Shown here piece after piece: positions 4,115 to 56,520 of a stretch of 64,000 nucleotides of DNA (positions are counted from its first letter, which is position 1; each line of letters begins with the position of its first letter). This DNA comes from Elusimicrobiota bacterium (lineage in GTDB: Bacteria; Elusimicrobiota; Elusimicrobia; Elusimicrobiales; UBA9959): assembly GCA_026388155.1 (NCBI GenBank), contig JAPLKI010000025.1, forward strand, positions 346,931-410,930, written 5' to 3'. The notes below the pieces were generated by a model. It made no database searches. It worked only from the letters and a program-made list of their open reading frames with translations, and was not told the DNA's origin. A program made the position numbers and the translations under genes.

Positions 4115-4164
4115 GGCCGTTTGTGGGCCAGAGGCCTTTGAGACGGCACCTCCAGGGGATTGGG
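4115..4164 (+). ncRNA. 50-nt conserved hairpin motif, copy A
   Basis: First of three gapless 50-nt copies in the window (others at 9547-9596 and, on the minus strand, 36871-36920). It starts GGCCGT, folds as GCCGT..GGCC-AGA-GGCC..ACGGC, continues with ACCT..GGG and ends ATTGGG. It sits 22 bases after the leuS stop and runs into a heptamer array. I cannot match it to a riboswitch class I know. It may be transcribed read-through from leuS. Confidence 0.5.
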
Positions 4165-4236
4165 TTTAGGGAAGGAGTTCCTTATTTCCGCACTCTATGG
4201 CCCTATACGCCAGCCCCTATACCCTATAATTTAGAC
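4161..4236. repeat. heptamer-repeat array, leuS-lptE spacer
   Basis: Seven-base units of the CCCTATA type repeat at 4200-4230 after a GGGAAGGAGTTCCTT centre. The left arm is short because copy A of the 50-nt motif occupies that side. Confidence 0.6.
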
Positions 4237-5965: not shown

Positions 5966-6036
5966 AAAACAAAATAGCGAAGTGTGAAAAGGGAGAAAAC
6001 TCAACCCCTATTCGCCATTCGCTATTCGCTATTTGC
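5966..6036. repeat. heptamer-repeat array, holA-rpsT spacer
   Basis: Units of the GCTATTC type run from about 6007 to 6036, opposed by a weak AATAGCGA arm near 5972. The units continue into rpsT, and the rpsT stop codon (CTA on the plus strand, 6029-6031) lies inside one of them. Confidence 0.65.
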
Positions 6037-7901: not shown

Positions 7902-7986
7902 GGCTGCCATAAGCCGGAGGCCTTAAGCCATAAGCTTATAAGGAATTCCTTTAAAACCTACGGCCTATGGCGTATAGCCTATAGCA
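7902..7986. repeat. heptamer-repeat array, murJ-uvrC spacer
   Basis: Left arm units of the ATAAGCC/TTAAGCC type and right arm units CTACGGC, CTATGGC, GTATAGC, CTATAGC flank a palindromic AAGGAATTCCTT centre at about 7940-7951. The arms are partly complementary, forming an extended hairpin. Confidence 0.75.
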
Positions 7987-11968: not shown

Positions 11969-13168
11969 TTAGCCGTTGCTGACCAGTTCGCCCAGGCTGA
12001 ACATGGGCATGAACATGGCTATAACTATCGTGCCAATAACCGCGCCCAACACCACCATAATAAGCGGCTCTATCATCGAGGTGAGGCCCTTAACCGCCGT
12101 ATCCACTTCCTGGTCGTAAAAATCGGCTATCTTGTTAAGCATGTTATCCAGGCTGCCGGTCTCTTCCCCGACGCTTATCATCTGTATGACCATGGGCGGG
12201 AAGATATTGGCTTTTTTAAGCGGATCGGAGATGCGTCCTCCTTCTTTTATGGAGTCGCGGCTGCTGTTAATGGCTTTTTCTATCATCACATTGCCGGAAG
12301 TTTTTGCCACGGTTTCAAGCCCCTGCAGTATGGGCACGCCGGACTTTATCAGCGTACCCAGGGTTCTTGTGAATTTGGCGATGGCGACCTTCTTGAGCAG
12401 TATGCCGAATACCGGCAGCTTCAGCGATAAGTCGTCGAAGTGTTCCCGGCCATGCTCGGTATTAATGTATTTCTTCACGCCCCAGATAAACAGGATAACG
12501 AACACCAAAAGCACTATGCCTGCCGGGCCGCGCAGTATCTCAGATATAGCAATTATACTCCGGGTGAGAAAAGGCAGTTGGCCGCCGAAACTTGAAAAGA
12601 TACCCTTAAATATCGGGATTACGAATACGATAAGAAAAACGGTAATGAGCGCCGCGACTATGGACACAACCAAAGGATACATTAAAGCGCTTTTGACCTT
12701 GGCTTTCAGGGCCTCCGTGGCTTCCAGGTAAGAGGACAGGCGTTCAAGGATGGCGTCAAGTATACCGCCCACCTCGCCCGCTCTTATCATGGCCACATAA
12801 AGTTCGTCAAACACCGTGGGATGCCTTCGCATGGCATCCGCGATAGACAGCCCCGATTCTATATCCAGGCGAAGCGCTCCGACCACGGTTTTAAAGTACG
12901 GGTTTTCCGCCTGCTCTTCAAGAATGTTCAAGCCCTGAACTATCGGCACGCCGGAAGACACCAAAGTGGACATTTGGCGGGAAAAAATAACGATATCACT
13001 ATTGGAGACCTTCGATCTGAAAAACTTTTTTTTGGCTTGCGGCGTTACCTCAACAACAACCAGTTTCCGCTCGCGCAGGCGGGCAATGGCCGTTTTCTGG
13101 TCGGAGGCTTCCAGCACGCCTTCCAGCGTCTCGCCATCGGTTCCTCTTGCTGTGTATGAAAATTTCAT
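11969..13168 (-). CDS. pilC: type IV pilus inner-membrane platform protein (PilC/GspF family)
   Basis: The 399-residue protein has an N-terminal cytoplasmic segment (FSYTARGTDGETLEG), then two tandem GspF domains, each with RLSSYLEATEALKAKVKSALMYP or a matching SISVGEETGSLDNML-type stretch, and three transmembrane helices near 170-195, 215-240 and 370-395. PilC is the platform that couples the cytoplasmic motor to pilin assembly. It follows pilT on the same strand with a repeat-filled spacer. The assembly ATPase PilB is not in this window. Confidence 0.92.
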   Translation of the reverse strand: MKFSYTARGTDGETLEGVLEASDQKTAIARLRERKLVVVEVTPQAKKKFFRSKVSNSDIVIFSRQMSTLVSSGVPIVQGLNILEEQAENPYFKTVVGALRLDIESGLSIADAMRRHPTVFDELYVAMIRAGEVGGILDAILERLSSYLEATEALKAKVKSALMYPLVVSIVAALITVFLIVFVIPIFKGIFSSFGGQLPFLTRSIIAISEILRGPAGIVLLVFVILFIWGVKKYINTEHGREHFDDLSLKLPVFGILLKKVAIAKFTRTLGTLIKSGVPILQGLETVAKTSGNVMIEKAINSSRDSIKEGGRISDPLKKANIFPPMVIQMISVGEETGSLDNMLNKIADFYDQEVDTAVKGLTSMIEPLIMVVLGAVIGTIVIAMFMPMFSLGELVSNG

Positions 13169-13182
13169 GGTTATTAAACGTT

Positions 13183-13289
13183 ACTACCCAGGTTCGCGGT
13201 TCAGCGGTTTAATGGTTCAAAGGCAGACAAAGCATAAAGAACAATCACTTTGAAGAACCCTGAACCGTGAACCGAACAACCTGAGTAGT
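13183..13289. repeat. heptamer-repeat array, pilT-pilC spacer
   Basis: The left arm has GGTTCGC, GGTTCAG and GGTTTAA type units; the right arm has GAACCCT, GAACCGT and GAACCGA units. Ends ACTACCCAGGTT and AACCTGAGTAGT are complementary, so the whole spacer folds on itself. Confidence 0.75.
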
Positions 13290-13305
13290 TACACTAAACT
13301 CAGCT

Positions 13306-14376
13306 TTACACAGATAGTGTTTTTTGCAGCAGCTTCTTTAAGTCCTCCGGGTCGGAAGAACGGGTGACGGCTTCCTGATAGGTAATTTTCTGTTTCTTAT
13401 AGAGATCCACCAGGGCCTGGTTCATGGTGACCATCCCGTACTTTCCGCCGGTCTGTATGATGGTGTTTATCTGCTCTATCTTCTGCTCGCGGATAAGGTT
13501 TCTTACCGCGGAGTTGGCCATCAGCACCTCGCAGGCAAGCACGCGGCCCGTGCCGGAAGAGGAAGCCAGAAGCTGCTGGGCAAAAACACCCTGCAGGACG
13601 AAGGAAAGCTGAACGCGTATCTGCTCCTGCTGATGCGGAGGGAACACGTCTATAATGCGGTTTATGGTCTGGGCGGCGTCAGACGTATGAAGCGTGGCGA
13701 ACACCAGATGTCCGGTTTCCGCGATATTCAAAGCCGCTCCTATGGTTTCAAGGTCCCGCATTTCGCCTATCAGTATCACATTAGGGTCCTGCCTGAGCAC
13801 ATGGCGAAGGGCCGAGCCGAAAGTCTCGGTGTCGGAACCGACCTCGCGCTGGTTTACAATGCTCTTTTTGTGGGTATGCACATATTCAATGGGGTCTTCC
13901 ACGGTGATTATGTGGTAATTGCGGTGCTCGTTCAAATAGTCTATCATCGAGGCGAGCGTGGTGGATTTGCCCGAGCCGGTCGGACCCGTGACAAGCAGCA
14001 GCCCCTTGGTAAGCTTCATTATTTCGTAAATTACCGGCGGCAGGTTCAGCTCGTCAAAAGTTTTGAATTTGCTCGGAATGGAGCGGATAGCCGCGCCTAT
14101 CACGCCGCGCTGGCGGTATGCGTTCATCCTCAGGCGGCCCATGCCTTTTATGCCGAAAGCGAAATCCAGCTCATTGGTGGCTTCAAAACGCTGACGCTGG
14201 GCGTCGGTCATGAGCGAAAAGACCAGAGTCTGGGCCAGGTCGGGGGTAAGTTTTTCGAAGGGACTGGGAAGCAGTTCGCCGTCAATTCTCATCATGGGCG
14301 GCGCTCCGGCGGTAAGATGAATATCGGAGGCGTTTTTTTCGTGCATCATTATGAACAGTTCGCTCATTGTAACCAT
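13306..14376 (-). CDS. pilT: twitching motility ATPase PilT
   Basis: The 356-residue retraction ATPase has the N-terminal SDIHLTAGAPPMMRIDGEL domain, Walker A GPTGSGKST near residue 130, the Asp box (ITVEDPIEYVH), Walker B (VILIGEMRDLET), the His box and the C-terminal VRNLIREQK signature of PilT. It powers pilus retraction and pairs with PilC on the same strand. AGGAGC sits nine bases before the chosen ATG, and a promoter is visible at 14509-14536. Confidence 0.96.
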   Translation of the reverse strand: MVTMSELFIMMHEKNASDIHLTAGAPPMMRIDGELLPSPFEKLTPDLAQTLVFSLMTDAQRQRFEATNELDFAFGIKGMGRLRMNAYRQRGVIGAAIRSIPSKFKTFDELNLPPVIYEIMKLTKGLLLVTGPTGSGKSTTLASMIDYLNEHRNYHIITVEDPIEYVHTHKKSIVNQREVGSDTETFGSALRHVLRQDPNVILIGEMRDLETIGAALNIAETGHLVFATLHTSDAAQTINRIIDVFPPHQQEQIRVQLSFVLQGVFAQQLLASSSGTGRVLACEVLMANSAVRNLIREQKIEQINTIIQTGGKYGMVTMNQALVDLYKKQKITYQEAVTRSSDPEDLKKLLQKTLSV

Positions 14377-14536: not shown

Positions 14537-14590
14537 GGGAACAGAGTGAACAGCGGATAGCGGATAGTGAATAGTGTTTTAGGGAGGAAG
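14537..14590. repeat. heptamer-repeat array, single arm
   Basis: Units GAACAGC, GGATAGC, GGATAGT and GAATAGT follow one another at 14548-14575, ending in TTTTAGGGAGG. No clear second arm is present. The array lies just upstream of the pilT promoter. Confidence 0.6.
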
Positions 14591-14667
14591 CCGGCTTTAT
14601 AACGGCAACGGATCGTGAAGGATCGGGCCTATTCAAAAATTTTACCGCATCCCCGTTCGCTGCGGTC

Positions 14668-21810: not shown

Positions 21811-21915
21811 GAGCAGGGAGTCTGGAGTTGAGAGTCAGGAGCTAAAAACCGGGAAGCTGCAAGTTTGAACTCTTAACTCCGAACTCCTTAACGCTGAAAC
21901 CCTGAACTCTCAACT
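21811..21915. repeat. heptamer-repeat array, upstream of the radical SAM pair to recN
   Basis: Left arm GGAGTTGAGAGTCAGGAG; right arm units GAACTCT, TAACTCC, GAACTCC, and again GAACTCTCAAC. The recN stop (TCA on the plus strand, 21910-21912) lies in the last unit. Confidence 0.75.
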
Positions 21916-23592
21916 TTTTCTGTTGCCTGTAACCTGACGGCTTTCTTCAAGAAGTTCGGCGGCGTGTTTTACGGCCTGGGCGGAGGATTTTTGTTTACCG
22001 CCAAGCATGCGGGCGATTTCAGCGGTCCTCTCAGCGCCTGAAAGTTCGCGCGCCGTGACGGCCGCTGAGTTTTTAAGCGAGGTCTTTTCAACGATAAAGT
22101 GCTTTTCGGAAAAAGCGGCCACCTGCGGCAGATGGGTGATGCAGAAAATCTGTTTCTCCGAGGCAAGCCGGCGGAGCTTTTGGCCCACCAGGCGCCCCGT
22201 TACCGCGCCTACGCCTGTGTCCACCTCGTCAAATACAAGCGCTCCTATCCGGTCCGCCGCGGCCAGCACGGTTTTCAGGGCAAGCATAAGGCGCGACATT
22301 TCCCCTCCCGAAGCAGTGAACCTTAAAGGGCGCAGCGGGTAGCCGGGATTGGCGGAAAAAAGATATTCAACGGCGTCCATGCCATAGGAGGAGATGTTTC
22401 CCTCATCTCCGTCCACCGCCGCCTCAAAGCGCAATTCTTTAAAACCAAGATCCGCCGCCTCGTCCTTTGTCCGGGCGGCCAGCTTTATGGCGGCGGCGCT
22501 ACGGGCGGCGTGCAGAGAGCGCGCGAGCTTAAGCAGCAGGGCTTCGCTTTTTTCAAGCTCTTTCCGGGCCTGCTCGCGGTTAAGGGTAAGGTCTTCAAGC
22601 TCCGCTATTTTGTTTTTAAGTTCCGCGCCTTTTGCGAGCACGGCATTTTCGTCCGGGCCGTATTTTTTCTTCAGCAAAGATATTTTTTCAAGCCGCGACA
22701 GGCAGGCGTCAAGCCTTGCGGGGTCGGTATCAAGGCCTTTTGAATACTTGTAAAGCTCCTCCGAGATATCGCTTAACTCGATCAGGGCGTTTTCAAGCCG
22801 GGGGGCAAGTTCCGGCGCGCCCTCGTCCAATTCGCCAAGGGCTTTGAGCCTCTCAAGGGCCTTTTCAAGATTTGCCTTGGCCGCGCCGTCGGAGCCGGCC
22901 GCGAGTTCATACGCGGCGTTTGAAAGCAGATAAAGCTTTTCGGCGTTTTTAAGCCTTGGATACAGCGCCTCAAGCTCCGCCTCCTCGCCGGATTTAAGCG
23001 CGGAGTCCTCTATTTCTTTGATCTGGAAGCGGTAAAGTTCAAGCAGGCGCTCCCGCTCGCGCTCCGACATTGAAACCGCTTCAAGGCGGCCGCGCAGCGC
23101 CTGCGCTTTGAGAAAAGCCTCACGCACGGCTCCCGCCTGTTTTTCAAGGCGGCCATAGCGGTCAAGAAGCGCGCGCTGGACTTCAGTTTTAAGCAGACTC
23201 TGATGCTCATTCTGTCCGTGGAAGTCCACCAGCGCCGAGCCCAGAGCGGAGACGGTGGAAAGCGGGACCTGCCTGGCGTTGATGAAAGACCTGGCGCGGC
23301 CTTTGGAATCGCTCTGCCTTTTAAGCGTAAAAGAATCTTTTTCAAGACCGAAACTTTCGCTCAGCTCCCGCCCAAGGCCGGCGGTCAAGAACTCTCCGCA
23401 AACCTCCGCCAAATTCGCCCCCGGACGCAGGATGTCCGAGCCGGCCCTTTCCCCCAGAAGAAAACCGAGGGCGGAAATAATTATGGATTTACCGGCCCCC
23501 GTCTCGCCGGTGAAAACATTGAGCCCCGGCCCCGGTTCAAGCGTCAGATTTTCTATGAGCGCGAAATTTTTTATGGTAAGTTTTTTCAGCAT
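21910..23592 (-). CDS. recN: DNA repair protein RecN
   Basis: The 560-residue SMC-like ATPase has N-terminal KLTIKNFALIENLTLE with Walker A GETGAGKS near residue 30, the Q-loop region (FHGQNEHQSLL), a central coiled coil about 150-380, the ABC signature (SGGEMSRLMLALK) and Walker B (LVFDEVDTGVGA). RecN tethers broken ends during double-strand break repair. A recN-nadK adjacency is common in bacteria and is kept here (nadK upstream on the same strand). Confidence 0.96.
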   Translation of the reverse strand: MLKKLTIKNFALIENLTLEPGPGLNVFTGETGAGKSIIISALGFLLGERAGSDILRPGANLAEVCGEFLTAGLGRELSESFGLEKDSFTLKRQSDSKGRARSFINARQVPLSTVSALGSALVDFHGQNEHQSLLKTEVQRALLDRYGRLEKQAGAVREAFLKAQALRGRLEAVSMSERERERLLELYRFQIKEIEDSALKSGEEAELEALYPRLKNAEKLYLLSNAAYELAAGSDGAAKANLEKALERLKALGELDEGAPELAPRLENALIELSDISEELYKYSKGLDTDPARLDACLSRLEKISLLKKKYGPDENAVLAKGAELKNKIAELEDLTLNREQARKELEKSEALLLKLARSLHAARSAAAIKLAARTKDEAADLGFKELRFEAAVDGDEGNISSYGMDAVEYLFSANPGYPLRPLRFTASGGEMSRLMLALKTVLAAADRIGALVFDEVDTGVGAVTGRLVGQKLRRLASEKQIFCITHLPQVAAFSEKHFIVEKTSLKNSAAVTARELSGAERTAEIARMLGGKQKSSAQAVKHAAELLEESRQVTGNRKS

Positions 23593-23600
23593 AGAACAGA

Positions 23601-23739
23601 ATCAGCGGCTAGAGAAGAGCGGTTAGGGGGTTAGGGGAGGAAATCTTTATTTCTGCGCTCTCTATACTGCCACCACACCCTGGCATTAAGGAACTCCTTC
23701 CCTGACCGCTAATCCCTATCCACTAGCCCCTACCTCTCC
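23601..23739. repeat. heptamer-repeat array, nadK-recN spacer
   Basis: The left arm carries GCGGCTA, GCGGTTA and GGGGTTA units; the right arm CTGACCGCTAATCCCTATCCACTAG with AAGGAACTCCTT between them. The nadK stop (CTA, 23730-23732) lies inside the right arm. Confidence 0.75.
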
Positions 23740-24726: not shown

Positions 24727-26019
24727 TCAGAAGTACAACGATAGTGCGGCTTCCACGAAAAACTGCGGATAATACAACTTCCGCACTACCATAGTCCGGT
24801 GGTTGCTGGGATAGTTGGCGCTGTTCGGATAAATCTCTATTGTATCGGTGTATTCCATTTTTTTGAAGTTATAATTTCCGAACACCGAAAACCCCAGCCG
24901 CTTCTGCAGTTTCCATTCAAGACCCAGCCGCGCCGTCGGAGTGGTATATCCATTGTTGTTATTATTATTATTGTTATTGTTATTGTTATTGTTATTGTTG
25001 TTGTTGTAGCCAATGCATACACTCCCGTTGCAGATCGGTGACGACCCCGACCCTTGCCCATCCTGTATTCTCATTTTCATCCCAAGGATGCCGCCGCCGA
25101 TTATCGCGCGGAACGGGCCGAAAAGATTGACTATTTTATTAAGCGTAAGCCGCATCATGGGCCCGTCGCCCTGGACGTTGGTCTCTGGCGGGAACTGGCC
25201 GCCGTAGTTGGAGCCGCTTGAAGCGACATTGAATACGGAACGCGGCGAAAACTCGGAGTGGAGAAAGGCGGTAATGTCAAACATCCAGGTTTTCCCCGGG
25301 CAGTAACGCACGCCCAAGCCCCCGGCCATAAATGAAGCGTTGGCATTTCTAGGAGTAACTGTCGCGTTGACGGGGCTGGGGGACACGTTCCAATAAAAGT
25401 TCTGCGAGGGAAGCTTCTCCATCTTCAGCGGACCGCCGCCCATAACCACATACAAGCCGACGGACTGGGATTGCTCGCCTTGCTCGCCTTCCGGCTCCTT
25501 CGCCTTCGCGCCGTAATGCGAAGCTTCCTCGTCCAGAAGCTGCGTCGGCACCTCGGTGACATCGGTCTCTATTATTTCGCCCTTTTCCGTGTTGATCAGC
25601 GAGGTGCTGATGTGGTAGAAGTCCCCCAGCTTCGTAACGATGCCGGACACCGCGAGCCGCGCGCCCGCCTGCTTGCCAAGCTGCGCCGCCGTCGCGATAT
25701 CCATGGCGGCCCCCGGCTTGCGGTCGGTCATGACCGTATTCACCTGGCTTCTGTCCAGCACCTTGAAAGCGCCGTCGGCCATAAAGCGGGTGGTAACCAG
25801 CTCCGTGCAGGCAAAATCAATGCGGCGGGACGAAAGTTTTTTGTCCGCCGTATACGGGAATACCGCCAGCGCAACGTTGGCGAGCTTGGCATCCGTCGCG
25901 GTTTTCACAAAGGTCTTCACCATCTTTTGCAGCCTTATGTCCATTTCCCCGGCCGCAGCTCCGGAAGCCGACAGCGCCAACACAACGACCGCGGCAAACA
26001 TAGCTGTAGTTCTTTTCAT
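24727..26019 (-). CDS. exported CsgG/FlgO-like and outer-membrane beta-barrel protein with poly-Asn run
   Basis: The 430-residue protein has a clear signal peptide (cleavage after Ala-Ala-Ala-Gly, about residue 24). Residues 40-170 resemble the CsgG/FlgO-type fold (NVALAVFPYTADKKLSSRRID, FKVLDRSQVN, GARLAVSGIVTKLGD, HISTSLINTEKGEI). Residues 185-430 alternate polar and hydrophobic strands and end in LSLYF with a terminal Phe, typical of outer-membrane barrels. An in-frame run of 18 asparagines, AAT and AAC codons at about 24953-25008, lies in a predicted loop. Function unknown; a surface-exposed protein with a variable loop is suggested. Confidence 0.65.
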   Translation of the reverse strand: MKRTTAMFAAVVVLALSASGAAAGEMDIRLQKMVKTFVKTATDAKLANVALAVFPYTADKKLSSRRIDFACTELVTTRFMADGAFKVLDRSQVNTVMTDRKPGAAMDIATAAQLGKQAGARLAVSGIVTKLGDFYHISTSLINTEKGEIIETDVTEVPTQLLDEEASHYGAKAKEPEGEQGEQSQSVGLYVVMGGGPLKMEKLPSQNFYWNVSPSPVNATVTPRNANASFMAGGLGVRYCPGKTWMFDITAFLHSEFSPRSVFNVASSGSNYGGQFPPETNVQGDGPMMRLTLNKIVNLFGPFRAIIGGGILGMKMRIQDGQGSGSSPICNGSVCIGYNNNNNNNNNNNNNNNNNNGYTTPTARLGLEWKLQKRLGFSVFGNYNFKKMEYTDTIEIYPNSANYPSNHRTMVVRKLYYPQFFVEAALSLYF

Positions 26020-26156: not shown

Positions 26157-28124
26157 TTACAGGGGGACTTCAATAGAGGCTCCGCGCGGCGCCTCCAGGA
26201 ACCGCCCGCCTTCCTCAAAAGCCCGGCCTTGCAGAAAAACCTGCCTGCCGCCTGAGCAAACCTCCGCGTCGCCGCCGCGCGAACTAAAAACAAAAGATAA
26301 TCGGCTTTCCTCCATAAAGCCGGTATAGCCCGGCGCGGCCTCCGTTTTTTCCCCTCCGCGGGCATAGCAGGGCCATGCGGCGGAAACCTTTATATCATCC
26401 AGAAGAACGCTTTCTCCGGGCCAAAGCTTTAAGATCACAGTTCCTTTTTTAGAAAGCTGTTCAATTTCGGTATTAAGGCCGTCAGGCAGCGGGCCGTAGG
26501 GCAGAAATAAGCGCCGCACTCTGATTAAATTCCCGAGCTCTTCAAGCCCGCTTGAATCGTTTTCATCAAGCGACGGCAGGAAGACGCCCTTTAACTCCCG
26601 CTCGCCGGAGGATAGAACGGCGTTTGAAAGCTTGGCTCCGCTCAATCCCGCATTAACCAGAAAAAGCCCGCCATCGCCCGCTCTGAACAGAAAGGCCGCG
26701 CTTTTGCCGTCTGAAAACAGGGAGGCGCCGGGACGCGAGGGAAAAAATTTACCGCAGCCGAACAGAAGCAGCGCCAGGGCGAACATCGCCCAAACAGGCT
26801 TTTTTTTGAAATTAAAAAGCGGAGCGTGAAGAAAAATAAAAACCAGCACGAAGAACGCCGCCGCGGACCAGGCGGAGGGCTCGCTCACGCGCACAGCGGA
26901 AAAGTAAAAACCGGCGAAAAATCTGATAAACAGGATGAACAGATCCAGCGCCCTCTGTGTGATAACGGAAAATAATCCGTATAAAACGGAGATCTTCGAA
27001 GAAAAAACCAGCAAAAAACCAAGCGCCATTATCACTCCCGAAGCCGGCACAAGCACTATGTTCGAGACCAGCGATACAAGGGAGATCTTATGAAAATAGT
27101 AGGCCATCAGCGGATACAGCCCCGCCTGGGCGAAAAAGCTTACCGCGAACAGCCCGGCCAAAATACCGGTAAGGCCCTTGAAACGGAGGCGCTCCCCCCA
27201 AAGTGTCATCCCAATACTTAAACCGTACGCGGCGGCAAAAGACATTTGAAAGCCGGCATCAAAGAGTGCCAGCGGCTCAAAAGCAAGGATCAGCAGGCAG
27301 GCGATTACGAGGCCCTGGAAAATGCCCGGACGGCGCTCAAGAAGCAAAGCCGCAAGACCGGAACCGAACATAAAATACGCCCTGGTAAGGGGCGGATCAA
27401 AACCAGCCGCCATTACATAAAAACCGGCGGATAGAAGCGCGAGCGGCCAGGAATGCCGCTTTTTCAGCCCGGCCCCGGCGCAGAGGAAATAAACCACTAT
27501 CACCACAAAACCCACATTTGAACCCGAGGCCACAAGCAGGTGCATGGAACCGGAATCCTGGAAAGCGGTTTTAAGCCCGGGGGAGATATTCTTCTTTTCA
27601 CCGATAACCACCCCGCCGGCCACCGAGGCGGCCTCGGAACTGAGTTTTAAGTCAAAAACAGCCAGCGCGGCCCGCCTGAAATCCGCCGCTTTTCCGAGCG
27701 CGAAACTGGCCTTGCGCTTTATACTGAACGCTCCACCGCGCGCTTCCGTGTTTATGCCGCGCCGGGACAGATAGCGCGGCCAGTCCAGATTTCCCGGAAC
27801 CACATTACTGAAAGGTTTTTTTAAGTCGCCCCTGAAAATCACCGTATCGCCCAAAGAAGCGCCGCCCAGATCGCCGGTGTACGCCATAACTTCGGTTTTA
27901 AGCGGGCGGCTGTCCACGCTTGTTGTTTCCAGTTCCATGCGCCAGAGTTTGTAATGTTTTATGGGGTATTCTTTTATTACGCCTTCAACTTCGGCGTCGT
28001 AAAGCGGAAGGTTTATAGTGTCGCCGGCGGCCCGGCGCTCAAACCAGGGGCGAAAAGCAATAATGAGCAGGGCGTAGAGGACGGTTAAAATGAAAAGCGG
28101 CCTTTTGTAATAGGAAAAAAGCAT
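26157..28124 (-). CDS. comEC: ComEC/Rec2-type DNA uptake channel with degenerate metallo-hydrolase domain
   Basis: The 655-residue membrane protein has an N-terminal DUF4131-like part (GDTVIFRGDLKKPFSN), the competence channel domain with many helices (SGSNVGFVVIVVYF; DPPLTRAYFMFG) and a C-terminal beta-lactamase-like domain. In that domain the usual HxDxDH metal site is replaced by PSLDENDSSG, so nuclease activity of this domain is doubtful. ComEC carries single-stranded DNA across the inner membrane and works with type IV pili, whose parts are encoded nearby. Confidence 0.88.
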   Translation of the reverse strand: MLFSYYKRPLFILTVLYALLIIAFRPWFERRAAGDTINLPLYDAEVEGVIKEYPIKHYKLWRMELETTSVDSRPLKTEVMAYTGDLGGASLGDTVIFRGDLKKPFSNVVPGNLDWPRYLSRRGINTEARGGAFSIKRKASFALGKAADFRRAALAVFDLKLSSEAASVAGGVVIGEKKNISPGLKTAFQDSGSMHLLVASGSNVGFVVIVVYFLCAGAGLKKRHSWPLALLSAGFYVMAAGFDPPLTRAYFMFGSGLAALLLERRPGIFQGLVIACLLILAFEPLALFDAGFQMSFAAAYGLSIGMTLWGERLRFKGLTGILAGLFAVSFFAQAGLYPLMAYYFHKISLVSLVSNIVLVPASGVIMALGFLLVFSSKISVLYGLFSVITQRALDLFILFIRFFAGFYFSAVRVSEPSAWSAAAFFVLVFIFLHAPLFNFKKKPVWAMFALALLLFGCGKFFPSRPGASLFSDGKSAAFLFRAGDGGLFLVNAGLSGAKLSNAVLSSGERELKGVFLPSLDENDSSGLEELGNLIRVRRLFLPYGPLPDGLNTEIEQLSKKGTVILKLWPGESVLLDDIKVSAAWPCYARGGEKTEAAPGYTGFMEESRLSFVFSSRGGDAEVCSGGRQVFLQGRAFEEGGRFLEAPRGASIEVPL

Positions 28125-28130
28125 AAAAAG

Positions 28131-28230
28131 CAGGGGATAGCGTATAGGGGTGAGGGGCTAGGTAGAGGGCGCGGAAATAAGGGACTCCTTCCTTAACCCC
28201 TATACGCCCGCCCCTGTCATCTATCCCTAT
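28131..28230. repeat. heptamer-repeat array, comEC-recR spacer
   Basis: Left arm GGGGATAGCGTATAGGGG with GGGGCTAGG; right arm CCTTAACCCCTATACGC with CTATCCC. The AAGGGACTCCTTCC centre is at about 28179-28192. The recR stop codon (CTA, 28227-28229) is part of the last unit. Confidence 0.75.
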
Positions 28231-28820
28231 ATTTTCGTGCGGCCCTTCAGAGCGTAGCCAAGGGTAATTTCATCAAGGTAGTCTATATCCCCGCCAAGGG
28301 GCACGCCGTAAGCGATACGGGTGATCCTGGGCACATACTTGGTTAAAAGATGGGTAAGGTACAGGGACATGGCCTCTCCCTCGGTATCGGGATTGGTGGC
28401 AATGATCAATTCTTCCACCGCGCCATCCGCGGCCTTTATTCTGTCTGTAAGTTCTTTGAGTTTTATGGCGCCCGGCGCCACGCCTTCGGTGGGAGAAATT
28501 GCGCCGTGCAGGACATGATATACGCCGTTAAAAGTTTTGGTTTTTTCTATGGCGGCCACATCCTGCGGATGCTCCACCACGCATATAATGCGTCTGTCCC
28601 TGGCGGAATCGGCGCAAATGGAGCAAAGGCGCTCCTCCGAGTAATTACAGCATTCGGCGCAATAACTTACCGAACTTTTCACCGCCCGCAGCGCCTCGAC
28701 CAGATCCTCGATTTCCCCCTCGGAGGCCTTTACGGCGTAAAGGGCGAAACGTTCCGCCTGCTTCGGGCCAACGCCGGGCAAGCGGCGGAAAAGCGAGGCA
28801 AGTTTGTCCAGGGATTTCAT
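28227..28820 (-). CDS. recR: recombination protein RecR
   Basis: The 197-residue protein has the N-terminal helix-hairpin-helix (LFRRLPGVGPKQAERFALY), the four-cysteine zinc finger (CAECCNYSEERLCSIC), a Toprim domain (ICVVEHPQDVAAIEKT) and a C-terminal Walker B-like region (TLGYALKGR). RecR works with RecF/RecO to load RecA at gaps. dnaX is directly upstream, as in many genomes. Confidence 0.97.
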   Translation of the reverse strand: MKSLDKLASLFRRLPGVGPKQAERFALYAVKASEGEIEDLVEALRAVKSSVSYCAECCNYSEERLCSICADSARDRRIICVVEHPQDVAAIEKTKTFNGVYHVLHGAISPTEGVAPGAIKLKELTDRIKAADGAVEELIIATNPDTEGEAMSLYLTHLLTKYVPRITRIAYGVPLGGDIDYLDEITLGYALKGRTKI

Positions 28821-28828
28821 ATAAGAAA

Positions 28829-28908
28829 ACAGCGGCTGGGGGTTAGAGGTCAGGGTTTTAGGGAAGGTATTCCTTTCATATCCCCTATCCGCTAACCGCT
28901 CTACTCTG
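28829..28908. repeat. heptamer-repeat array, dnaX-recR spacer
   Basis: Left arm GCGGCTGGGGGTTAGAGGTCAGGG, centre TTTTAGGGAAGGTATTCC, right arm CCCCTATCCGCTAACCGCTC. The arms pair over most of their length. Confidence 0.75.
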
Positions 28909-28914
28909 CTTTTA

Positions 28915-30717
28915 TTATTCGCTTTTTCCTGTTACAGGCTTTTTAGTCACTTTCGTTATCTTGCTGCCGTGAAACACTTTTGAAAGTTTTTTAAGTTCCG
29001 GCTCAATTTCGGAGACGCCGGCTTCCGGCAAATCTTCCCAGCGGCCTTCCACCGCCGGGGGCTCGTTTTGCGCTTCAGCCTCCGGTTCGACCTCAGAAGC
29101 GGTCTGCGGAGCGGACAAATCCTCAAGCACGGGCTCCGCGGATTTAACGGAAGCCGAATGTCCCACGATAAATTCTATTTTTCTGCCGGAGAGGTTTTCC
29201 ATAGCCTCTTCAAGCGCAGGCCGGACCCTCTCGATCATATCCGCTTCAAGTTTAGTCGGAGAATTGAGACGCCACTTCGTCTCGCTGTCAAATGTTATTT
29301 TTACAGAAAGCAGCATATTATAAGCCAGCGGCTTTTTCCCGGCTATATGGGCAAGCAGCTTTTTCCAAAGGGCGGAAGGAGGAATGGACGGGGATGGCCG
29401 CGCCGGAGAATCGGGAACTGATCGGTAAGCGGCGGCGGGCTCTTTTTGGGAGGTGAAACCGGTGTCTGTACCCGGTTTTGCCGGCTCCGAGTTCAAAATG
29501 TCATTTTTTTTTTGCCGCGCGGACGGCGCGGGCGCGGCAGCCGGCTCAATTGCCGGGGATTGCCCTCCCCCCATGCCGACCGGGCTAATGTGGGAACCCG
29601 GGGCAAGACGCAGCTCAAGGCCCTCAAGCCGCCTGACCAAAGCGTCCAGGTCCTGAGGCGTATCTATAAGGGTAAACAGCGCCATTTCGGCCGCTATGGA
29701 AAGTGAATCGGAAAACTTCACTTCTTCCACCGCTAAATTCACTTTTCTGGATAATTTAGCCAGCGCTGAAGCCGAAAAGTCCTTAGGTAAAACGGCCGCC
29801 AAAGTCGTTTTTGCCCCGGAAAATTCCCGCATGTAAAAAAAAGTCCCGGCTAAAAGGTTGCGCAGGTCGCGAAGCGCCGTAAGAATGTCGTAGCCCTCGG
29901 CGTTAAGCTTGTCAAAAGCCGCGTGCAGCGCCGCGGCGTCGCGCCCGACAAGCGCAAGCGCCAGGGAATTTATAAGGTCTTCGCCCGCGTGGCCCAGAAG
30001 CTCGTTTAAAACCTCGGTTTTTACCTCGCCGCGTCCGAATGAAACCGCGCGGTCAAGCAGTGTCATGGCGTCGCGCATGGCGCCTGAAGCCGCTTTGGCT
30101 ATTATTTTCAGGGCTTCCGGCTCGGATTTTATTTTTTCTTTTTCCGCCACTTCCTTCAGCCGCTCAAACATAATCTCTTCGGCAAGGGGCCTGAAACGGA
30201 AGCACTGCGAGCGCGAAAGTATCGTGACAGGCACCTTGTGCTGTTCGGTGGTGGCCATAATAAACACAACATGGTCCGGCGGCTCTTCCACGGTTTTCAA
30301 AAGCGCGTTGAAAGCCTTTTCGGAAAGCATGTGCACTTCATCCAGAATGTAGATCTTATATTTGTCGCGGGAAGGAGAGAACTCCACATTTTCAATTATA
30401 ATATCGCGCACATTTTCCACCTTCGTGTGGGAAGCGGCGTCTATTTCTATCACATCCAGGGATTTGCTTTCGGCTATTTCAATGCAGGAGGCGCACTTGT
30501 CGCAGGGCTTGCCGTCTTTCGGATCGTGGCAGTTTAATATTTTGGCGAGTATGCGGGCTATGGTGGTTTTACCGCAGCCGCGCGGTCCGTAAAAAACATA
30601 GGAATTCGCGATACGGCCCAGCTTAACCGCATTGGCAAGTGTCTGCTTTACGGTTTCCTGGCCCAAAACCTCCTGGAGATTTTTGGGGCGGTATTTGGCG
30701 GCAAGATTTTCGTACAT
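28915..30717 (-). CDS. dnaX: DNA polymerase III subunit gamma/tau
   Basis: The 600-residue clamp-loader ATPase has Walker A GPRGCGKTT near residue 47, a zinc module (CHDPKDGKPCDKCASC), Walker B (IYILDEVHMLS), the SRC sensor (LSRSQCFRF) and, after residue 370, a Pro/Ala-rich linker and a tau-like C-terminal domain (LWKKLLAHIAGKKPLAYNML). It is the partner of HolA. I see no obvious slippery sequence of the E. coli type, so a short gamma form is not predicted. Confidence 0.96.
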   Translation of the reverse strand: MYENLAAKYRPKNLQEVLGQETVKQTLANAVKLGRIANSYVFYGPRGCGKTTIARILAKILNCHDPKDGKPCDKCASCIEIAESKSLDVIEIDAASHTKVENVRDIIIENVEFSPSRDKYKIYILDEVHMLSEKAFNALLKTVEEPPDHVVFIMATTEQHKVPVTILSRSQCFRFRPLAEEIMFERLKEVAEKEKIKSEPEALKIIAKAASGAMRDAMTLLDRAVSFGRGEVKTEVLNELLGHAGEDLINSLALALVGRDAAALHAAFDKLNAEGYDILTALRDLRNLLAGTFFYMREFSGAKTTLAAVLPKDFSASALAKLSRKVNLAVEEVKFSDSLSIAAEMALFTLIDTPQDLDALVRRLEGLELRLAPGSHISPVGMGGGQSPAIEPAAAPAPSARQKKNDILNSEPAKPGTDTGFTSQKEPAAAYRSVPDSPARPSPSIPPSALWKKLLAHIAGKKPLAYNMLLSVKITFDSETKWRLNSPTKLEADMIERVRPALEEAMENLSGRKIEFIVGHSASVKSAEPVLEDLSAPQTASEVEPEAEAQNEPPAVEGRWEDLPEAGVSEIEPELKKLSKVFHGSKITKVTKKPVTGKSE

Positions 30718-30726
30718 AGTAAGGAC

Positions 30727-30829
30727 AAGGGGATAGGGGCTAGCGGCTAGCGGCTAGCGGTTAGGGAAGGTATGGGGAATCCGATTCCTTCGCTATCCTC
30801 TAATCTCTATACGCTAACCCCTGCTGCTA
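30727..30829. repeat. heptamer-repeat array, outer-membrane protein-dnaX spacer (clearest example)
   Basis: The spacer reads almost entirely as 7-nt units: GGATAGG, three GGCTAGC, GGTTAGG, then the centre GAAGG..CCTTC, then TATCCTC, TAATCTC, TATACGC, TAACCCC. The arms are complementary and the array ends exactly in the stop codon (CTA, 30827-30829) of the outer-membrane protein gene. Confidence 0.85.
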
Positions 30830-31678
30830 GAACTTTATTCCCGCGCCGATCGACAGGAAATTGTTTGTACTGGAACCGTCGTTAAATATCTGGTAGCCGA
30901 CATTTGCCGTCACCATGCTCAGGTCCACATACGCGCCAAGCAGGTAGGCGGAACTGTCTTTGGCACTGTCCTTGTATTGGGTCCTGGTGTAGGACACGAA
31001 AGGAGTGACCATGGGTTGTCCCGGCAGATCCAGTTTAACATTAACGCTGGATTTGGGGAGAGCCGCCAGGGCGAAGTTAAGGCCGGTTACGAAGAGCTGC
31101 GGCGTCACGTTTTTAGTTCCATAGCTGTAGCCGGTATAGGCGGCCGAAAGGTTGATCATGAAGACTTTGGCCCCTGCAAAAAGCGAAGCTTCGGCCTGGC
31201 CTGTTTTGTTATCAACACTCGGGGCCTTCTGAGTATGCGACGTGTATTTGAGACTCGCGCCCACGTCAATGCGGGTTACGCCCTGTCCGCCGCGCGCAGC
31301 ACCCCGGGAACCGGGCCCGGCAAGACGGGAATGTCCGCCCGAGCCGGGAGTAAGGGAAAAAGTTATATCGGCGCCGCCAAAATAATTTGAGTAGCCGTTG
31401 ACTTCAGGAGTCGCACCGGCATCCGCGCCGATGGTGCGCTTGTCGGTTTCCCAGGCGCCGCGCAGGGCGTAGGTGCGATAAGTGCTGTCCAGCGCATTGG
31501 AGGTATAAGAAACCAATGAGGGCTCAAAGGCGAAGTTATCGGAACCTATAACCAGGTTAATGTTCGTTCCGCGATAACCGTGAGGGCCGGAAACAGCGTT
31601 AACCCCCCCGTCAAAATACGCCGCCGTGTTAAGTCCTAAAACCGCGCAAGCGACCGCCGCCAACATTATTTTTTTCAT
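30827..31678 (-). CDS. exported protein, probable small outer-membrane beta-barrel
   Basis: The 283-residue protein starts with a signal peptide (MKKIMLAAVACAVLGLNTAA). The rest is rich in alternating strands (NINLVIGSDNFAFEPSL, VSYTSNALDSTYRTYALRG, VTANVGYQIFNDG) and ends with FLSIGAGIKF, a terminal phenylalanine typical of BAM-assembled barrels. I do not recognise the family. A glycine-rich insert (SGGHSRLAGPGSRGAARGG) lies in one loop. Confidence 0.6.
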   Translation of the reverse strand: MKKIMLAAVACAVLGLNTAAYFDGGVNAVSGPHGYRGTNINLVIGSDNFAFEPSLVSYTSNALDSTYRTYALRGAWETDKRTIGADAGATPEVNGYSNYFGGADITFSLTPGSGGHSRLAGPGSRGAARGGQGVTRIDVGASLKYTSHTQKAPSVDNKTGQAEASLFAGAKVFMINLSAAYTGYSYGTKNVTPQLFVTGLNFALAALPKSSVNVKLDLPGQPMVTPFVSYTRTQYKDSAKDSSAYLLGAYVDLSMVTANVGYQIFNDGSSTNNFLSIGAGIKF

Positions 31679-31724
31679 TTTCCCTCCATGTTTTTTTATT
31701 CACTATTCCAGTGCTGAAGTACAT

Positions 31725-31745
31725 AAAGGTAGACGCTACCTTTTT
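31725..31745. repeat. short AAAAGGTAG hairpin, copy 3
   Basis: AAAGGTAG-ACG-CTACCTTT is a perfect 8-bp hairpin with a T-tract, ten bases beyond the stop of the deoxyhypusine-synthase-like gene. It is probably part of that gene's transcript end or a dispersed repeat; the T-tract reads on the plus strand. Confidence 0.65.
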
Positions 31746-31754
31746 ACTGCCTAT

Positions 31755-36920: not shown

Positions 36921-36926
36921 TGATAT

Positions 36927-36955
36927 AATCTAGCTAATATTACACCGAAAGCCAA
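36927..36955 (-). promoter_or_regulatory. possible promoter for protein 6 of the membrane cluster
   Basis: Minus-strand TTGGCT (36950-36955) and TAGATT (36927-36932) with 17 bp between. TATATC overlaps as an alternative -10. Confidence 0.4.
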
Positions 36956-36960
36956 GTGCC

Positions 36961-37245
36961 AATCGTCCTATAGCCGGCTAGGCACAAAGGCCTCTGTTCC
37001 CTCCAATAGAAAAAGCCCGGGCGCAAACCTGGAGATAGTTCCTTGCGAAAGAGACTCACACTCAAAAGACTGCCCGCTGAAACAGCGGACGCGCCTCGGT
37101 CGCGGACAGCGCCATAGGCCCTCGAAAGGCCGGCGGCACCGTCGAAAAAACTCTCTTTGCAAGGGACTACGCTCCTTATACCCCGTTGAACACCGCTTAC
37201 TGATCGTCTAACGGGGCAAACTAAGTTTGAAACCTCGGGCTCAGA
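36961..37245. other. highly structured non-coding region between cluster genes 5 and 6
   Basis: The region has no convincing gene but folds strongly. A 17-bp long-range stem with one bulge joins 37037-37054 to 37152-37168 (CCTTGCgAAAGAGA with TCTCTTTGCAAGG). Inside are CCGCTG-AAA-CAGCGG (37074-37088) and GGCC..GGCC (37117-37131). A separate CCCCGTT..AACGGGG stem spans 37181-37216. Either strand could be the RNA; tmRNA, RNase P and SRP signatures are absent. Confidence 0.4.
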
Positions 37246-43121: not shown

Positions 43122-43287
43122 AACCCCTCTCTTTTTCCAGCCACCCGGCAACGACCGCCGGTGACACAGGAGGAAACCGCATACTTTATTCCACTCAACC
43201 GGTTCAAACCCAGAACGCACAAACAACTATAAACTTTCCTTGACACAATTACTGGAATGTTCAAGGCAAAGTTCCGACCGCAAATAT

Positions 43288-43316
43288 GTTATAGCAGAAA
43301 ACACTTGACTTGTCAA
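43288..43316 (-). promoter_or_regulatory. strong sigma-70 promoter of cluster gene 2
   Basis: Minus-strand TTGACA (43311-43316) and TATAAC (43288-43293) are 17 bp apart with an extended -10 TGC. GGGCCC is directly upstream of the -35, as in the promoter at 44718-44746. Confidence 0.75.
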
Positions 43317-43404
43317 GGGCCCGGCCTACCACCCACACGCCGCATATACGGGGGCTTTTCGGCGTTTTTTTGTCAGACTCTGCCAAAACGATCATCCCTT
43401 CCGG

Positions 43405-45963: not shown

Positions 45964-46050
45964 CAGGGGCTAGGGGCTGGAGGTTAGCGGTGAGGGGATG
46001 AACAAACTCCTTCCCTAAACACCTATCCCCTATACGCTCGCCCCTGCCCT
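45964..46050. repeat. heptamer-repeat array, flavodiiron-moaD spacer
   Basis: Left arm GGGGCTA, GGGGCTG, GAGGTTA; right arm CCTATCCCCTATACGC with an ACTCCTTCCCTAA centre. The moaD stop follows within three bases. Confidence 0.75.
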
Positions 46051-46342: not shown

Positions 46343-46374
46343 CCATTTTGCATGTTTCACTTTGCATTTTGCGC
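46343..46374. repeat. short heptamer-repeat array
   Basis: Units CATTTTG, CATGTTT, CACTTTG and CATTTTG follow each other between the Mur ligase stop and the moaD Shine-Dalgarno. No second arm. Confidence 0.65.
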
Positions 46375-46378
46375 TTCT

Positions 46379-52029: not shown

Positions 52030-52113
52030 GGAATTAGCGAATAGCGAGTAGCGGCAGAACTTACATTCTTATCTAATTCGCTAATCGCTGTTTGCTATTC
52101 GCTATTCGCTACC
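52030..52113. repeat. heptamer-repeat array, ridA-malQ spacer
   Basis: Left arm TTAGCGA, ATAGCGA, GTAGCGG; right arm TAATTCGC, TAATCGC, TTTGCTATTCGC, TATTCGC. The array fills the whole spacer from the ridA stop to five bases before the malQ ATG, so malQ has no Shine-Dalgarno. Confidence 0.8.
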
Positions 52114-53677: not shown

Positions 53678-54540
53678 ATAAGACAAGTCTCAAGTCACAG
53701 GTCACAAGTCACAAGCCACAAGCCCGCAGATTTATGGCTTATGGCTTATGGCTTACGGCGATGAGCATGCTTTCGGCATGCTCATTAAACCGCTTTGTGG
53801 TTCGCCAGACGGCGAATATAATAGACGGCGGCTTGCCGGCGGTTTTCTCACAAAGCGACCCGCAATACGTTAAAGAAGCCCTGCCGGGCAACCTGCAATT
53901 AATGGAAATACTGCTGCAAAACGACCCCTCAAACCGCAAACTTCTGATAAACGCCGCGCAGGGTTTCTGCGGCTACGCCCTGATGTTCATTGAGGACGAA
54001 AACCCGGAACGCGCCTCCATTTTTTACGCCAAAGGCGGGGCCTACGCTTCGCGCGCTCTTAAAGGCGTTAAGCCGGAAACAGCATGTAAGGCCGATGTCC
54101 CCCCGCTTTTCTGGCAGACCTTCTGCAAGGCCTCATACATAAACCTCAACAGGGACAAGCCGGAAGCCGTGGCCGAACTGCCGGACATCGAACCGGCGGC
54201 CGAAAAAATACTGGCGCTGGACCCGGACTATTATTATAACGGGGCACAGAGCATTCTGGGCGCTTACTATTCCATACGCCCCCGCATACTTGGCGGCGAC
54301 CCTGAAAAGGCCAAGGCGCATTTTGAACTGGCGCTGAAAGGAGCCGGCGAGGGCTTCCTTTTAAACCGCTTCATGTACGCGAAAATGGCCGCCGTGGCGG
54401 CGCAGGACGCGGGACTTTTTGAAAATCTCCTTAACGCCGTGCTGACTGCGGAACCCAAAGACGGCTCCACGCGCCTGCCGGACGAGGTGGCTAAGATCAA
54501 GGCGAAAAAATTACTGGAGAAAAAAGATGAATTGTTTTAA
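53674..54540 (+). CDS. tatT: TRAP transporter T-component lipoprotein (TatT)
   Basis: The 288-residue TPR-like protein matches the TatT family, a periplasmic lipoprotein that trimerises and associates with the TRAP solute receptor. A GTG start overlapping the malQ stop (GTGA) with GAGGAG upstream is preferred; an ATG at 53734 is the alternative. The signal peptide is long, with the lipobox LSAC at about residue 36. Residues about 5-28 are encoded by a heptamer-repeat array (AAGTCAC and ATGGCTT units). Its stop overlaps the dctP start. Confidence 0.85.
   Translation: MNKTSLKSQVTSHKPQARRFMAYGLWLTAMSMLSACSLNRFVVRQTANIIDGGLPAVFSQSDPQYVKEALPGNLQLMEILLQNDPSNRKLLINAAQGFCGYALMFIEDENPERASIFYAKGGAYASRALKGVKPETACKADVPPLFWQTFCKASYINLNRDKPEAVAELPDIEPAAEKILALDPDYYYNGAQSILGAYYSIRPRILGGDPEKAKAHFELALKGAGEGFLLNRFMYAKMAAVAAQDAGLFENLLNAVLTAEPKDGSTRLPDEVAKIKAKKLLEKKDELF
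53683..53757. repeat. heptamer-repeat array inside the tatT signal-peptide codons
   Basis: AAGTCAC/AAGCCAC units at 53690-53725 and ATGGCTT units at 53734-53757 face each other as complementary arms. The reading frame continues through both. Confidence 0.75.
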
Positions 54541-55582
54541 AAGGACAGGGTACAGGGGCGAGGGGCTAGGGGTCAGGACGAAGAGAACAGCCTCCGCTGT
54601 TCTGCTATTCGCTATTTGCTCCCCCCTGCCTTTGGCGGCACAAACCGTGGTCAAATTCGCGACGGTGGCGCCGGACGGTTCCACCTGGATGAAAGCTATG
54701 AAGCAGTTCACCGACGAAACCACGGCAAAAACAGCGGGGCGCGTGAAATTTAAAATTTACCCCGGCGGCGTATCAGGGGAAGACAAAGACGTGGTAAGGA
54801 AAATACGCCTCGGCCAGCTGCAGGCGGCCGGTTTTACCGGAGTGGGCATAGGCGAAATCGCCCCCGAAGCGCGCATACTGGACACGCCTTTCCTTTTCAA
54901 GAACGCCAAAGAAATAGACCATATCTACAAAACGCTGGACTCCGATTTCCGCAAAATTTTTGAGACGCGCGGCTATATCCTGCTGGGCTGGGCGGAAGTG
55001 GGCAATGTTAATATTTTTTCCACTTCGCCGGTAACAAAACCGGAAGACCTGAAAGCGGTCAAGATGTGGATATGGGAAGGAGACCCCGTAGCGGAGGCCA
55101 CCTTCGCGGCCCTCGGGATCAAGCCCATACCGCTTTCTATAACCGACGTAATGACCTCCCTGCAGACCGGCATGATAAACGGCGTTTACGGCTCTCCACT
55201 TTCCGTGATAGCCATGCAGTGGTTCGCCCGCATGAAATATGTTTTCTCCATGCCCATAGCGAACGCCGCGGGAGCCGTGGTAATTTCGAAGAAGGCTTTT
55301 GACACCCTGTCGCAAGAGGACCGGAAAACGATGCTTGAGCTGGGGGATAAATATTTTAAGGCTCTCACCGCGCAGAGCCGCAAGGATAACGAACAGTCGC
55401 TCAAGATCCTGCGGGCCAAAAAACTGGCGTTCACCGACCCCGCCGGCCCCGCGGTTATTGCCGAATTTGAACGCGACGGCGCGGAAGCCCGGCAGTCGCT
55501 GGTCGGCAAGCTTTACTCAAAAGAACTGCTGGAAAAAGTGGAGGACGCCCTTAAAACCTTCCGCGCCGGCAAAAAAAGCTAG
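54527..55582 (+). CDS. dctP: TRAP transporter solute-binding protein DctP
   Basis: The 351-residue periplasmic receptor has VKFATVAPDGSTWMKAM, the VRKIRLGQLQAAGFTGVG region, FLFKNAKEIDHIYKTL, WIWEGDPVAEATF and the conserved ITDVMTSLQTGMINGVYG. It binds a carboxylate or similar solute for the DctQM permease. The ATG overlaps the tatT end and has GGAG upstream. The long signal peptide (about residues 1-38) is largely encoded by heptamer repeats. The TAG stop is formed by the end of the MITE that follows. Confidence 0.95.
   Translation: MNCFKRTGYRGEGLGVRTKRTASAVLLFAICSPLPLAAQTVVKFATVAPDGSTWMKAMKQFTDETTAKTAGRVKFKIYPGGVSGEDKDVVRKIRLGQLQAAGFTGVGIGEIAPEARILDTPFLFKNAKEIDHIYKTLDSDFRKIFETRGYILLGWAEVGNVNIFSTSPVTKPEDLKAVKMWIWEGDPVAEATFAALGIKPIPLSITDVMTSLQTGMINGVYGSPLSVIAMQWFARMKYVFSMPIANAAGAVVISKKAFDTLSQEDRKTMLELGDKYFKALTAQSRKDNEQSLKILRAKKLAFTDPAGPAVIAEFERDGAEARQSLVGKLYSKELLEKVEDALKTFRAGKKS
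54545..54632. repeat. heptamer-repeat array inside the dctP signal-peptide codons
   Basis: The left arm has ACAGGGG, CGAGGGG, CTAGGGG type units (54550-54580), the right arm GCTATTC, GCTATTT, GCTCCCC (54601-54625). Both lie in the dctP reading frame. Confidence 0.75.
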
Positions 55583-56391: not shown

Positions 56392-56520
56392 GTGATTAAG
56401 GAAGAGATCAGAGGTTAAGGGTTCGGTCTCACTCACTATTCGCTATTCGCTGTCCGCTATTAGCCATTCGCTAGTCGTTGTTCGCTATTCGCCATTCGCT
56501 AGTTGCTATTCGCTAATCAT
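56392..56520. repeat. heptamer-repeat array, dctQ-dctM spacer (longest unbroken run)
   Basis: From about 56437 to 56520 the sequence is twelve consecutive 7-nt units, mostly GCTATTC with variants GCTGTCC, GCTATTA, GCCATTC, GCTAGTC and GCTAATC. A weaker AGTGATT arm precedes it. The run ends directly at the dctM ATG, leaving no Shine-Dalgarno. Confidence 0.9.

Follow-up and report, generated by a model that had tools for sequence, protein, structure and literature searches.

Intergenic hairpins of seven- and eight-nucleotide units in an Elusimicrobiota genus: candidate families of small mobile palindromes

Heptamer repeats have been noted in many bacteria, and we know of no accepted reason for the number 7 or for the division of the units into fixed and free letters. 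The closest described system is in Xanthomonas, where Rehm et al. 2015 (PMC4692102) reported 70–75 inverted heptamer pairs per genome, capable of forming stem-loops. Those GGGANTN repeats and the GGGGA(C/T)T repeats of Nostoc resemble the ones analyzed here: they are intergenic, have a 7-nt unit with fixed and free positions, are scarcer between divergent genes, and vary in length and sequence between species at the same junctions. However, one unit type per genome is described there (PMC4692102), whereas the spacers studied here hold many unit families, octamers among them, and a shared centre, and one family replaces another at orthologous junctions. The P6b stem of the cyanobacterial tRNA-Leu intron likewise takes repeat motifs (TDNGATT or NNTGAGT) as its building blocks, and these have free positions, replacement of one whole motif class by another at one orthologous site, and 14-nt insertions (Kaasalainen et al. 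2015, PMC4476775), but it is a single RNA locus in a group I intron, in contrast to hundreds of dispersed loci here that lack an RNA-level signal.

Two further groups are alike in part. REP and RPE palindromes are also dispersed, lie just downstream of coding regions and can supply stop codons; as presented in the relevant sections of PMC3733652 and PMC2817692 they are 20–40 bp long, GTAG or CGTC tagged and often beside RAYT genes, and those sections describe no tandem-unit arms. Dispersed intergenic heptamer arrays occur in Beggiatoaceae (TAACTGA; MacGregor 2015, PMC4679880) and in Geobacter metallireducens (GGGACCG and MTYCTGA; genome paper, PMC2700814), but these are direct repeats for which the repeat sections of both papers describe no inverted-arm architecture; the TAACTGA section mentions one indirect repeat. 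The sequence-only reading of our locus had taken paired arms to be undescribed, which the Xanthomonas pairs and the heptamer-built P6b stem show to be wrong. Within the searchable literature, what is new beyond known paired heptamers is the number of families, the shared centre, the octamers, the fixed-skeleton/free-letter pattern and a near-complete turnover between species.

Short-unit hairpins in the spacers

The window is a 64,000-bp stretch (C25:346931-410930; positions without a contig prefix count from its first letter) of a 3.36-Mb, 25-contig genome, G000, whose closest named relatives are the Elusimicrobiota MAGs GWA2_51_34 (matching congener G002) and UBA9634 (matching congener G001). 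Its genes around the repeats are ordinary (leuS, uvrC, gltX, recN, comEC-like, recR, dnaX). The focal hairpin, with arms AGGGGCTAGCGGCTAGCGGCTAGCGGTTAGGGAAGG and AGGGGTTAGCGTATAGAGATTAGAGGATAGCGAAGG, lies between two minus-strand genes, with the start of dnaX (28915-30717) on one side and the stop codon of the following gene (30827-31678) on the other; at this junction the units are GGGGCTA in G000 and of GGGGATA type in G001, and G002 has the octamer GTAGGCTG. The sites, none of them assigned to a strand, are as follows (p values against shuffles).

30735..30822: focal hairpin, GGGGCTA (TAGNGRN) family; score 80, p 0.01; lag-7 p 0.01
4154..4218: GGGGCTA-family heptamer array, centre AAGGAGTTCCTT; lag-7 p 0.02, hairpin p 0.30
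5973..6026: GAATAGC-type hairpin, type retained in G002; hairpin p 0.04
7906..7971: GCCATAA-family palindrome, centre AAGGAATTCCTT, GCCATAA family also in G002; hairpin p 0.04
13150..13317: GGTTCAC-family hairpin, outer flank TAACTACTCAGG; hairpin p 0.01, lag-7 p 0.08; orthologous spacer with a different repeat (ATTACACAG) in G001 and the AGGCTGA type in G002
14538..14600: GGATAGC heptamer array, pairing not significant; lag-7 p 0.01, hairpin p 0.24
21811..21922: paired heptamers, GAGTTCA type; hairpin p 0.03, lag-7 p 0.01
23604..23731: hairpin of the GGGGCTA family, centre TAAGGAACTCCTTCCC; p 0.01; octamer GAGTCTNA hairpin in G002
28114..28236: GGGGATA-family hairpin; p 0.01; octamer AGTGATTA hairpin in G002
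28821..28918: GGGGTTA-family hairpin; p 0.01; orthologous spacer 0 bp in G001 and 38 bp in G002
45964..46046: hairpin of the GGGGCTA family, centre AACTCCTTCCCT; p 0.02; type shared with G002
46343..46378: unpaired array of CATTTTG heptamers; lag-7 p 0.01, hairpin p 0.17
52035..52111: GAATAGC hairpin; p 0.01; same type in G002, one of two such spacers occupied in both species
53683..53754: arrays of AAGTCAC/AAGCCAT inside the N-terminal extension predicted for ORF 53674-54540; lag-7 p 0.01, hairpin p 0.05
54545..54630: unpaired heptamer array; lag-7 p 0.01, hairpin p 0.42
56392..56502: run of the octamer AGTGATTA, then a long CTATTCG array; lag-7 p 0.01, hairpin p 0.06, lag-8 match

The sequence-only reading had predicted a lag-7 autocorrelation in spacers as against genes, and this is borne out. 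Across the 34 window spacers of at least 40 bp, lag-7 self-match is 0.297 versus 0.252 in dinucleotide shuffles (z 8.2), with echoes at lag 14 (z 6.8) and lag 21 (z 4.8), while window genes stand at 0.250, so the signal is confined to spacers. It grows to z 30 over 464 kb of the home contig (lag 8, z 7), and the spacers of G002 give z 17 at lag 7 and z 9 at lag 8. A 7-nt tandem period concentrated in spacers, with units degenerate at some positions and fixed at others (column entropies, pair statistics), is what characterizes STRR/LSSR-type intergenic heptameric repeats; octamer families behave in the same way.

Site by site, the first description needs trimming. It had counted at least sixteen spacers of tandem 7-nt units: tested singly, 15 of the 16 have significant lag-7 runs (p<=0.05), 13183 reaching only p 0.08. 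Complementary arms, claimed for most, beat shuffles at p<=0.05 in 11 of the 16 and are not significantly paired at 4161, 14537, 46343, 54545 and 56392. The AAGGA..TCCTT centre is found in about half (for example 4161, 7902, 23601, 28131 and 45964) and is missing from the rest. The unit does differ between loci, in many families, but the 7-nt period is not always kept, several families having period 8 in the same architecture.

Beyond the window, hairpins scoring above 99.5% of shuffles occupy 75 of 262 spacers in G000 and 66 of 176 in G002; part of the spacers hold no array at all. The best arm lag in these hairpins is 7 in 84 cases and 8 in 29, every other lag accounting for at most 4, so the period is 7 or 8. 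As in Xanthomonas, arrays of one unit lie close by in inverted orientation: 114 of 132 GC..TA. arrays and 48 of 50 GC..GTA. arrays are locally paired. At two G002 loci, L115 and L122, the paired arms have periods near 9–10 (GATTACACA and GCAACAGAAA types), and unit length is thus not restricted to 7 and 8.

The window has other features besides these arrays. A noncoding block at 43206-43323, with CTTGACA and CTTGACTTGTCAAGGG, is 83–86% identical in both congeners, above the neighbouring genes, and is possibly a conserved regulatory region; another noncoding stretch (36923-37045, in a 589-bp spacer) is 76–85% conserved in both. Inside genes there is a hexamer array at 24940-25000 (lag 6 match 0.95), and a 24-nt repeat lies at about 40012.

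Dispersed copies and turnover between species

Clustering of arm units yields about ten populated types with unequal information per position, among them GCYDTAW, AGSGDHK, MACMRGT and AGWAKKY at period 7 and GCTDGTAK and GTCTRAGA at period 8. Judged from the letters, the octamer GC..GTA. looks like the heptamer GC..TA. plus one extra G, which would place 7- and 8-nt versions of apparently one motif in one genus. An all-against-all comparison of spacers returned 113 alignments of at least 50 bp and at least 86% identity with 7/8-nt texture, the best being 94–98.6% identical over 72–83 bp at different loci of one genome; near-identical copies of 70–83 bp sit at distant loci. One 83-bp copy, whose 96.4% twin lies 2 kb off, is found inside another GCCATAA element. 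In having scattered, nearly identical copies of a set length, the families resemble MITEs of DDE transposons. Profile searches spanning 1.26 Mb of G000 and 0.76 Mb of G002 gave these families:

GCCATAA family, 82 bp: 63 loci in G000, 36 in G002
GTAGGCTG family (octamer), 87 bp: 3 loci in G000, 31 in G002
GGGGCTA family, 99 bp: 119 loci in G000, 38 in G002
TCAGAAG family, 88 bp: 16 loci in G000, 20 in G002
GGTTCAC family, 76 bp: 7 loci in G000, 10 in G002

From its 3 and 31 loci we conclude that the GTAGGCTG family was amplified in one species only. The centre RGGAACTCCTTCC (<=1 mismatch) has 98 genome matches against 12 for its reversed control. Target-site duplications, expected for MITEs of DDE transposons, show no excess at k 2–8 in five families, and a search for a transposase or autonomous copy as mover found none; an autonomous version with an ORF between the arms can be set aside, as the only four such brackets look chance-like. 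Separately, TCAGAAG and GGTTCAC elements in G000, G001, G002 and G004 are repeatedly bordered on the outside by TAACTACTCAGG (44 versus 2 control matches in G002), which may mark element ends. At 55578-55849 there is a ~270-bp palindrome with near-perfect 36-bp terminal inverted repeats (GCTAGTGTAGTGTCTCGCAAATAGCTTTACTTTTGA) and a sibling at C25:200692-201014, which looks like a classic MITE.

The explanation we favour, and hold to be somewhat better than evenly supported, is that the spacers carry small mobile palindromes, non-autonomous and behaving like REPs or MITEs, in many families (about ten unit types being well populated). In each palindrome a short centre (often AAGGARTTCCTT) would be framed by two inverted runs, with ~3–5 copies of a single 7- or 8-nt unit per run; whole palindromic elements of ~75–100 bp would disperse between loci, hundreds of them filling the gaps between genes. 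Movement itself is suggested by comparison of copies.

Orthologous junctions fit a rapid turnover. Among 101 comparable spacers of G000 and G002 (median protein identity 79%, one genome per species), 37 lack hairpins in both species, and a 7/8-nt hairpin is confined to G000 at 9 (median 108 vs 30 bp) and to G002 at 21, at a distance between the species that is too great for clean empty sites. Hairpins are present in both at 15, of which 13 differ in unit type; the type is common to both only at 52030 and C22:177082, as judged by eye from the arms. The sequence-only reading had proposed an active process and a comparison of orthologous spacers for unit-number change. The activity stands in that junctions keep the architecture and rarely the unit family, and copies do differ by whole units, but orthologous spacers of the congeners usually hold different families. 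When copies are aligned, the commonest gap is exactly one unit long, with 69 gaps of 7 nt versus 36 of 6 nt and 29 of 8 nt in heptamer families and, in the octamer family, 34 gaps of 8 nt versus comparison counts of 10 and 7, which points to whole-unit gain and loss as a secondary process by which the arms of established elements would be remodelled. For comparison, the genus provides hundreds of loci, some ten well-filled unit families in each genome, and related species between which turnover is almost total.

Alternative origins and the free positions

That the heptamers are made in place was the other half of the earlier proposal. Replication slippage by 7–8 nt combined with hairpin self-templating, one arm copied from the other, would build arrays where they stand; a hypothesis tying 7 nt to polymerase contact is cited in PMC4692102 and in the repeat section of PMC4679880. 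The one-unit gap peaks, the variable unit number and the long unpaired arrays of G007 speak for it, although aligners also favour unit-length gaps in periodic sequence. Against it, whole elements are dispersed with shared centres, orthologous sites do not inherit the unit type, and slippage predicts that neighbouring units should be most alike. Adjacent units instead resemble each other no more than distant units do, and are slightly less alike than shuffled ones: they are identical in 101 cases versus 115.9 after within-array shuffling (p 0.0025, six families pooled). Nor does templating account for the arms, and we reject it: in two tight families, own arms pair no better than chimeras assembled from different copies (2.45 vs 2.42 per nt; 2.42 vs 2.30), so complementarity comes from the inverted orientation of one unit type and not from recent arm-to-arm copying. 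The looser clusters differ, own arms pairing better there than chimeras, which a mixture of unit types would be expected to produce. We therefore regard slippage as an unlikely origin of the arrays, formation in place being mostly unsupported; the near-identical copies and one-species amplification argue for dispersal of whole elements rather than array growth by slippage.

The copy sets separate a clock (the centre), a frozen skeleton and free positions whose letters are near random. Among GCCATAA pairs whose centres are 85–95% identical, differences fall at unit position 4 in 51% and at position 7 in 64% of cases, but at positions 1, 2, 5 and 6 in 2–7%, and even with centres <70% identical the skeleton differs in only 2–9%, a contrast that profile and regular-expression detection, which enriches intact skeletons, may exaggerate. 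Where an intact left arm was the sole selection, 91 of 126 right arms match the skeleton at 11–12 of its 12 positions and intermediates are few; elements are thus intact or absent. Paired GCCATAA units agree at free positions less often than shuffled ones (0.387 vs 0.443, p 0.005), a difference that did not reach significance in the three further families tested. The anti-repeat tendency is modest overall: it stands out when data are pooled or in a single family, and some families lack it. Shuffling between elements, two tight families show the anti-repeat direction and the heterogeneous GGGGCTA set the opposite, probably through subfamily mixture.

Within the mobile-palindrome explanation, the skeleton (GC..TA.) could be the sequence recognized by whatever copies the element, and the free positions could keep paired and neighbouring units different, leaving an imperfect hairpin that would escape deletion or hairpin cleavage. 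A bolder version, which we consider a long shot, is that the copying machinery writes each element from a degenerate skeleton, redrawing the free positions at every copying so that they differ from neighbours and partners, and does so with other skeletons in several phyla. If true, the elements would be a diversity-generating family with fixed skeleton positions in several bacterial phyla.

RAYTs, the tyrosine transposases that move REP elements, are very improbable movers here. Y1_Tnp matches exist (4 in G000, 6 in G002), and copy number, placement and the lack of target duplication fit REPs, but what borders the inspected genes is a different short palindrome (AAAAAGGTAGACGCTACCTTTTT) or some other inverted repeat (flanks of 9 of the 16 Y1_Tnp loci in the genus show palindromes other than heptamer elements), and the consensus elements are 76–99 bp rather than 20–40 bp, without a GTAG/CGTC end tag. 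A short palindrome at 31679-31754 in the window (AAAGGTAGACGCTACCTTTTTA) is identical in type to the one flanking a RAYT gene of this genome, at L130. Reverse transcriptases show no association with heptamer-bearing genomes.

Hairpins occupy 30–38% of codirectional, 18–23% of convergent and 5–14% of divergent spacers, starting a median of 4 nt past the stop codon and leaving a median of 17 nt to the next start. Local spread is rejected, since adjoining hairpins show no enrichment for a common unit type. Placement just past stop codons and avoidance of divergent spacers, as in many REPs (PMC3733652), would suit RNA hairpins kept by selection as 3' end stabilizers, attenuators or terminators of the upstream gene. 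The centre, however, is unbiased in orientation relative to genes (15 with, 13 against), which also argues against a Shine-Dalgarno role for its AAGGAG; G-U mismatches are not in excess over A-C in the transcribed strand (133 vs 122); T-tails on the gene strand number 7 of 244 versus 16 in the opposite-strand control, unlike intrinsic terminators; and the elements have no match in Rfam. These signals point to elements that act, or are tolerated, as DNA, and with no conservation at orthologous junctions either, selection at the RNA level is a highly doubtful explanation.

Distribution and a nuclease lead

Array occurrence per locus was taken from local array counts, and the centre pattern was counted across relatives. 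In samples of 15–40 kb per genome, dense arrays were seen in several of the family's genera (G003, G004, G006, G007, G010, G015, G020) and not in G005, G008, G013, G016, G021 or G023. Heptamers, some paired, are also present at the Acidobacteriota loci L054, L056 and L061 and at L057. The arrays of G007 are long and unpaired, and single-armed unpaired arrays occur elsewhere too, so palindromy is not universal.

An SbcD-type model has no match in the dense genomes G000, G001, G002, G004, G006, G007, G010, G015 and G019 or in the five genomes behind the heptamer-bearing Acidobacteriota and L057 loci, and matches the array-free G005, G008, G012, G013, G016, G021 and G023 as well as four of five genomes of the Mailhella type. 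In genera g4 and g12 the partial matches prove to be a Metallophos protein followed directly by an AAA_23 ATPase, a Mre11-Rad50-like pair, and by sequence its Metallophos protein is found in 31 of the family's 59 genomes, all belonging to g4, g7 or g12. At least 10 AAGGARTTCCTT sites occur in 7 of the 25 genomes without the pair versus 1 of the 34 with it (Fisher p 0.008, uncorrected for phylogeny), an association that is phylogenetically clumped and has one exception, the element-rich G020 with a divergent Mre11-Rad50-like pair. Elusimicrobiaceae and Endomicrobia mostly lack the nuclease yet have no dense arrays; its absence is therefore not sufficient.

As a lead only, the lack of a Mre11-Rad50-like hairpin nuclease in element-rich genomes, that exception aside, may be tied to tolerance of the elements, its loss helping lineages to accumulate them; the dispersed-element explanation would thereby gain a testable link to hairpin nuclease loss. 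PMC3733652 gives a duplex stem of between 8 and 16 bp as the requirement of E. coli SbcCD and states that REP pairs with mismatches may escape it, which would fit escape through mismatches. The loci L236, L237 and L238 carry compact Mre11-Rad50-like operons, the Metallophos gene being followed at once by the AAA_23 ATPase gene, that score below the SbcD/SbcC cut-offs.
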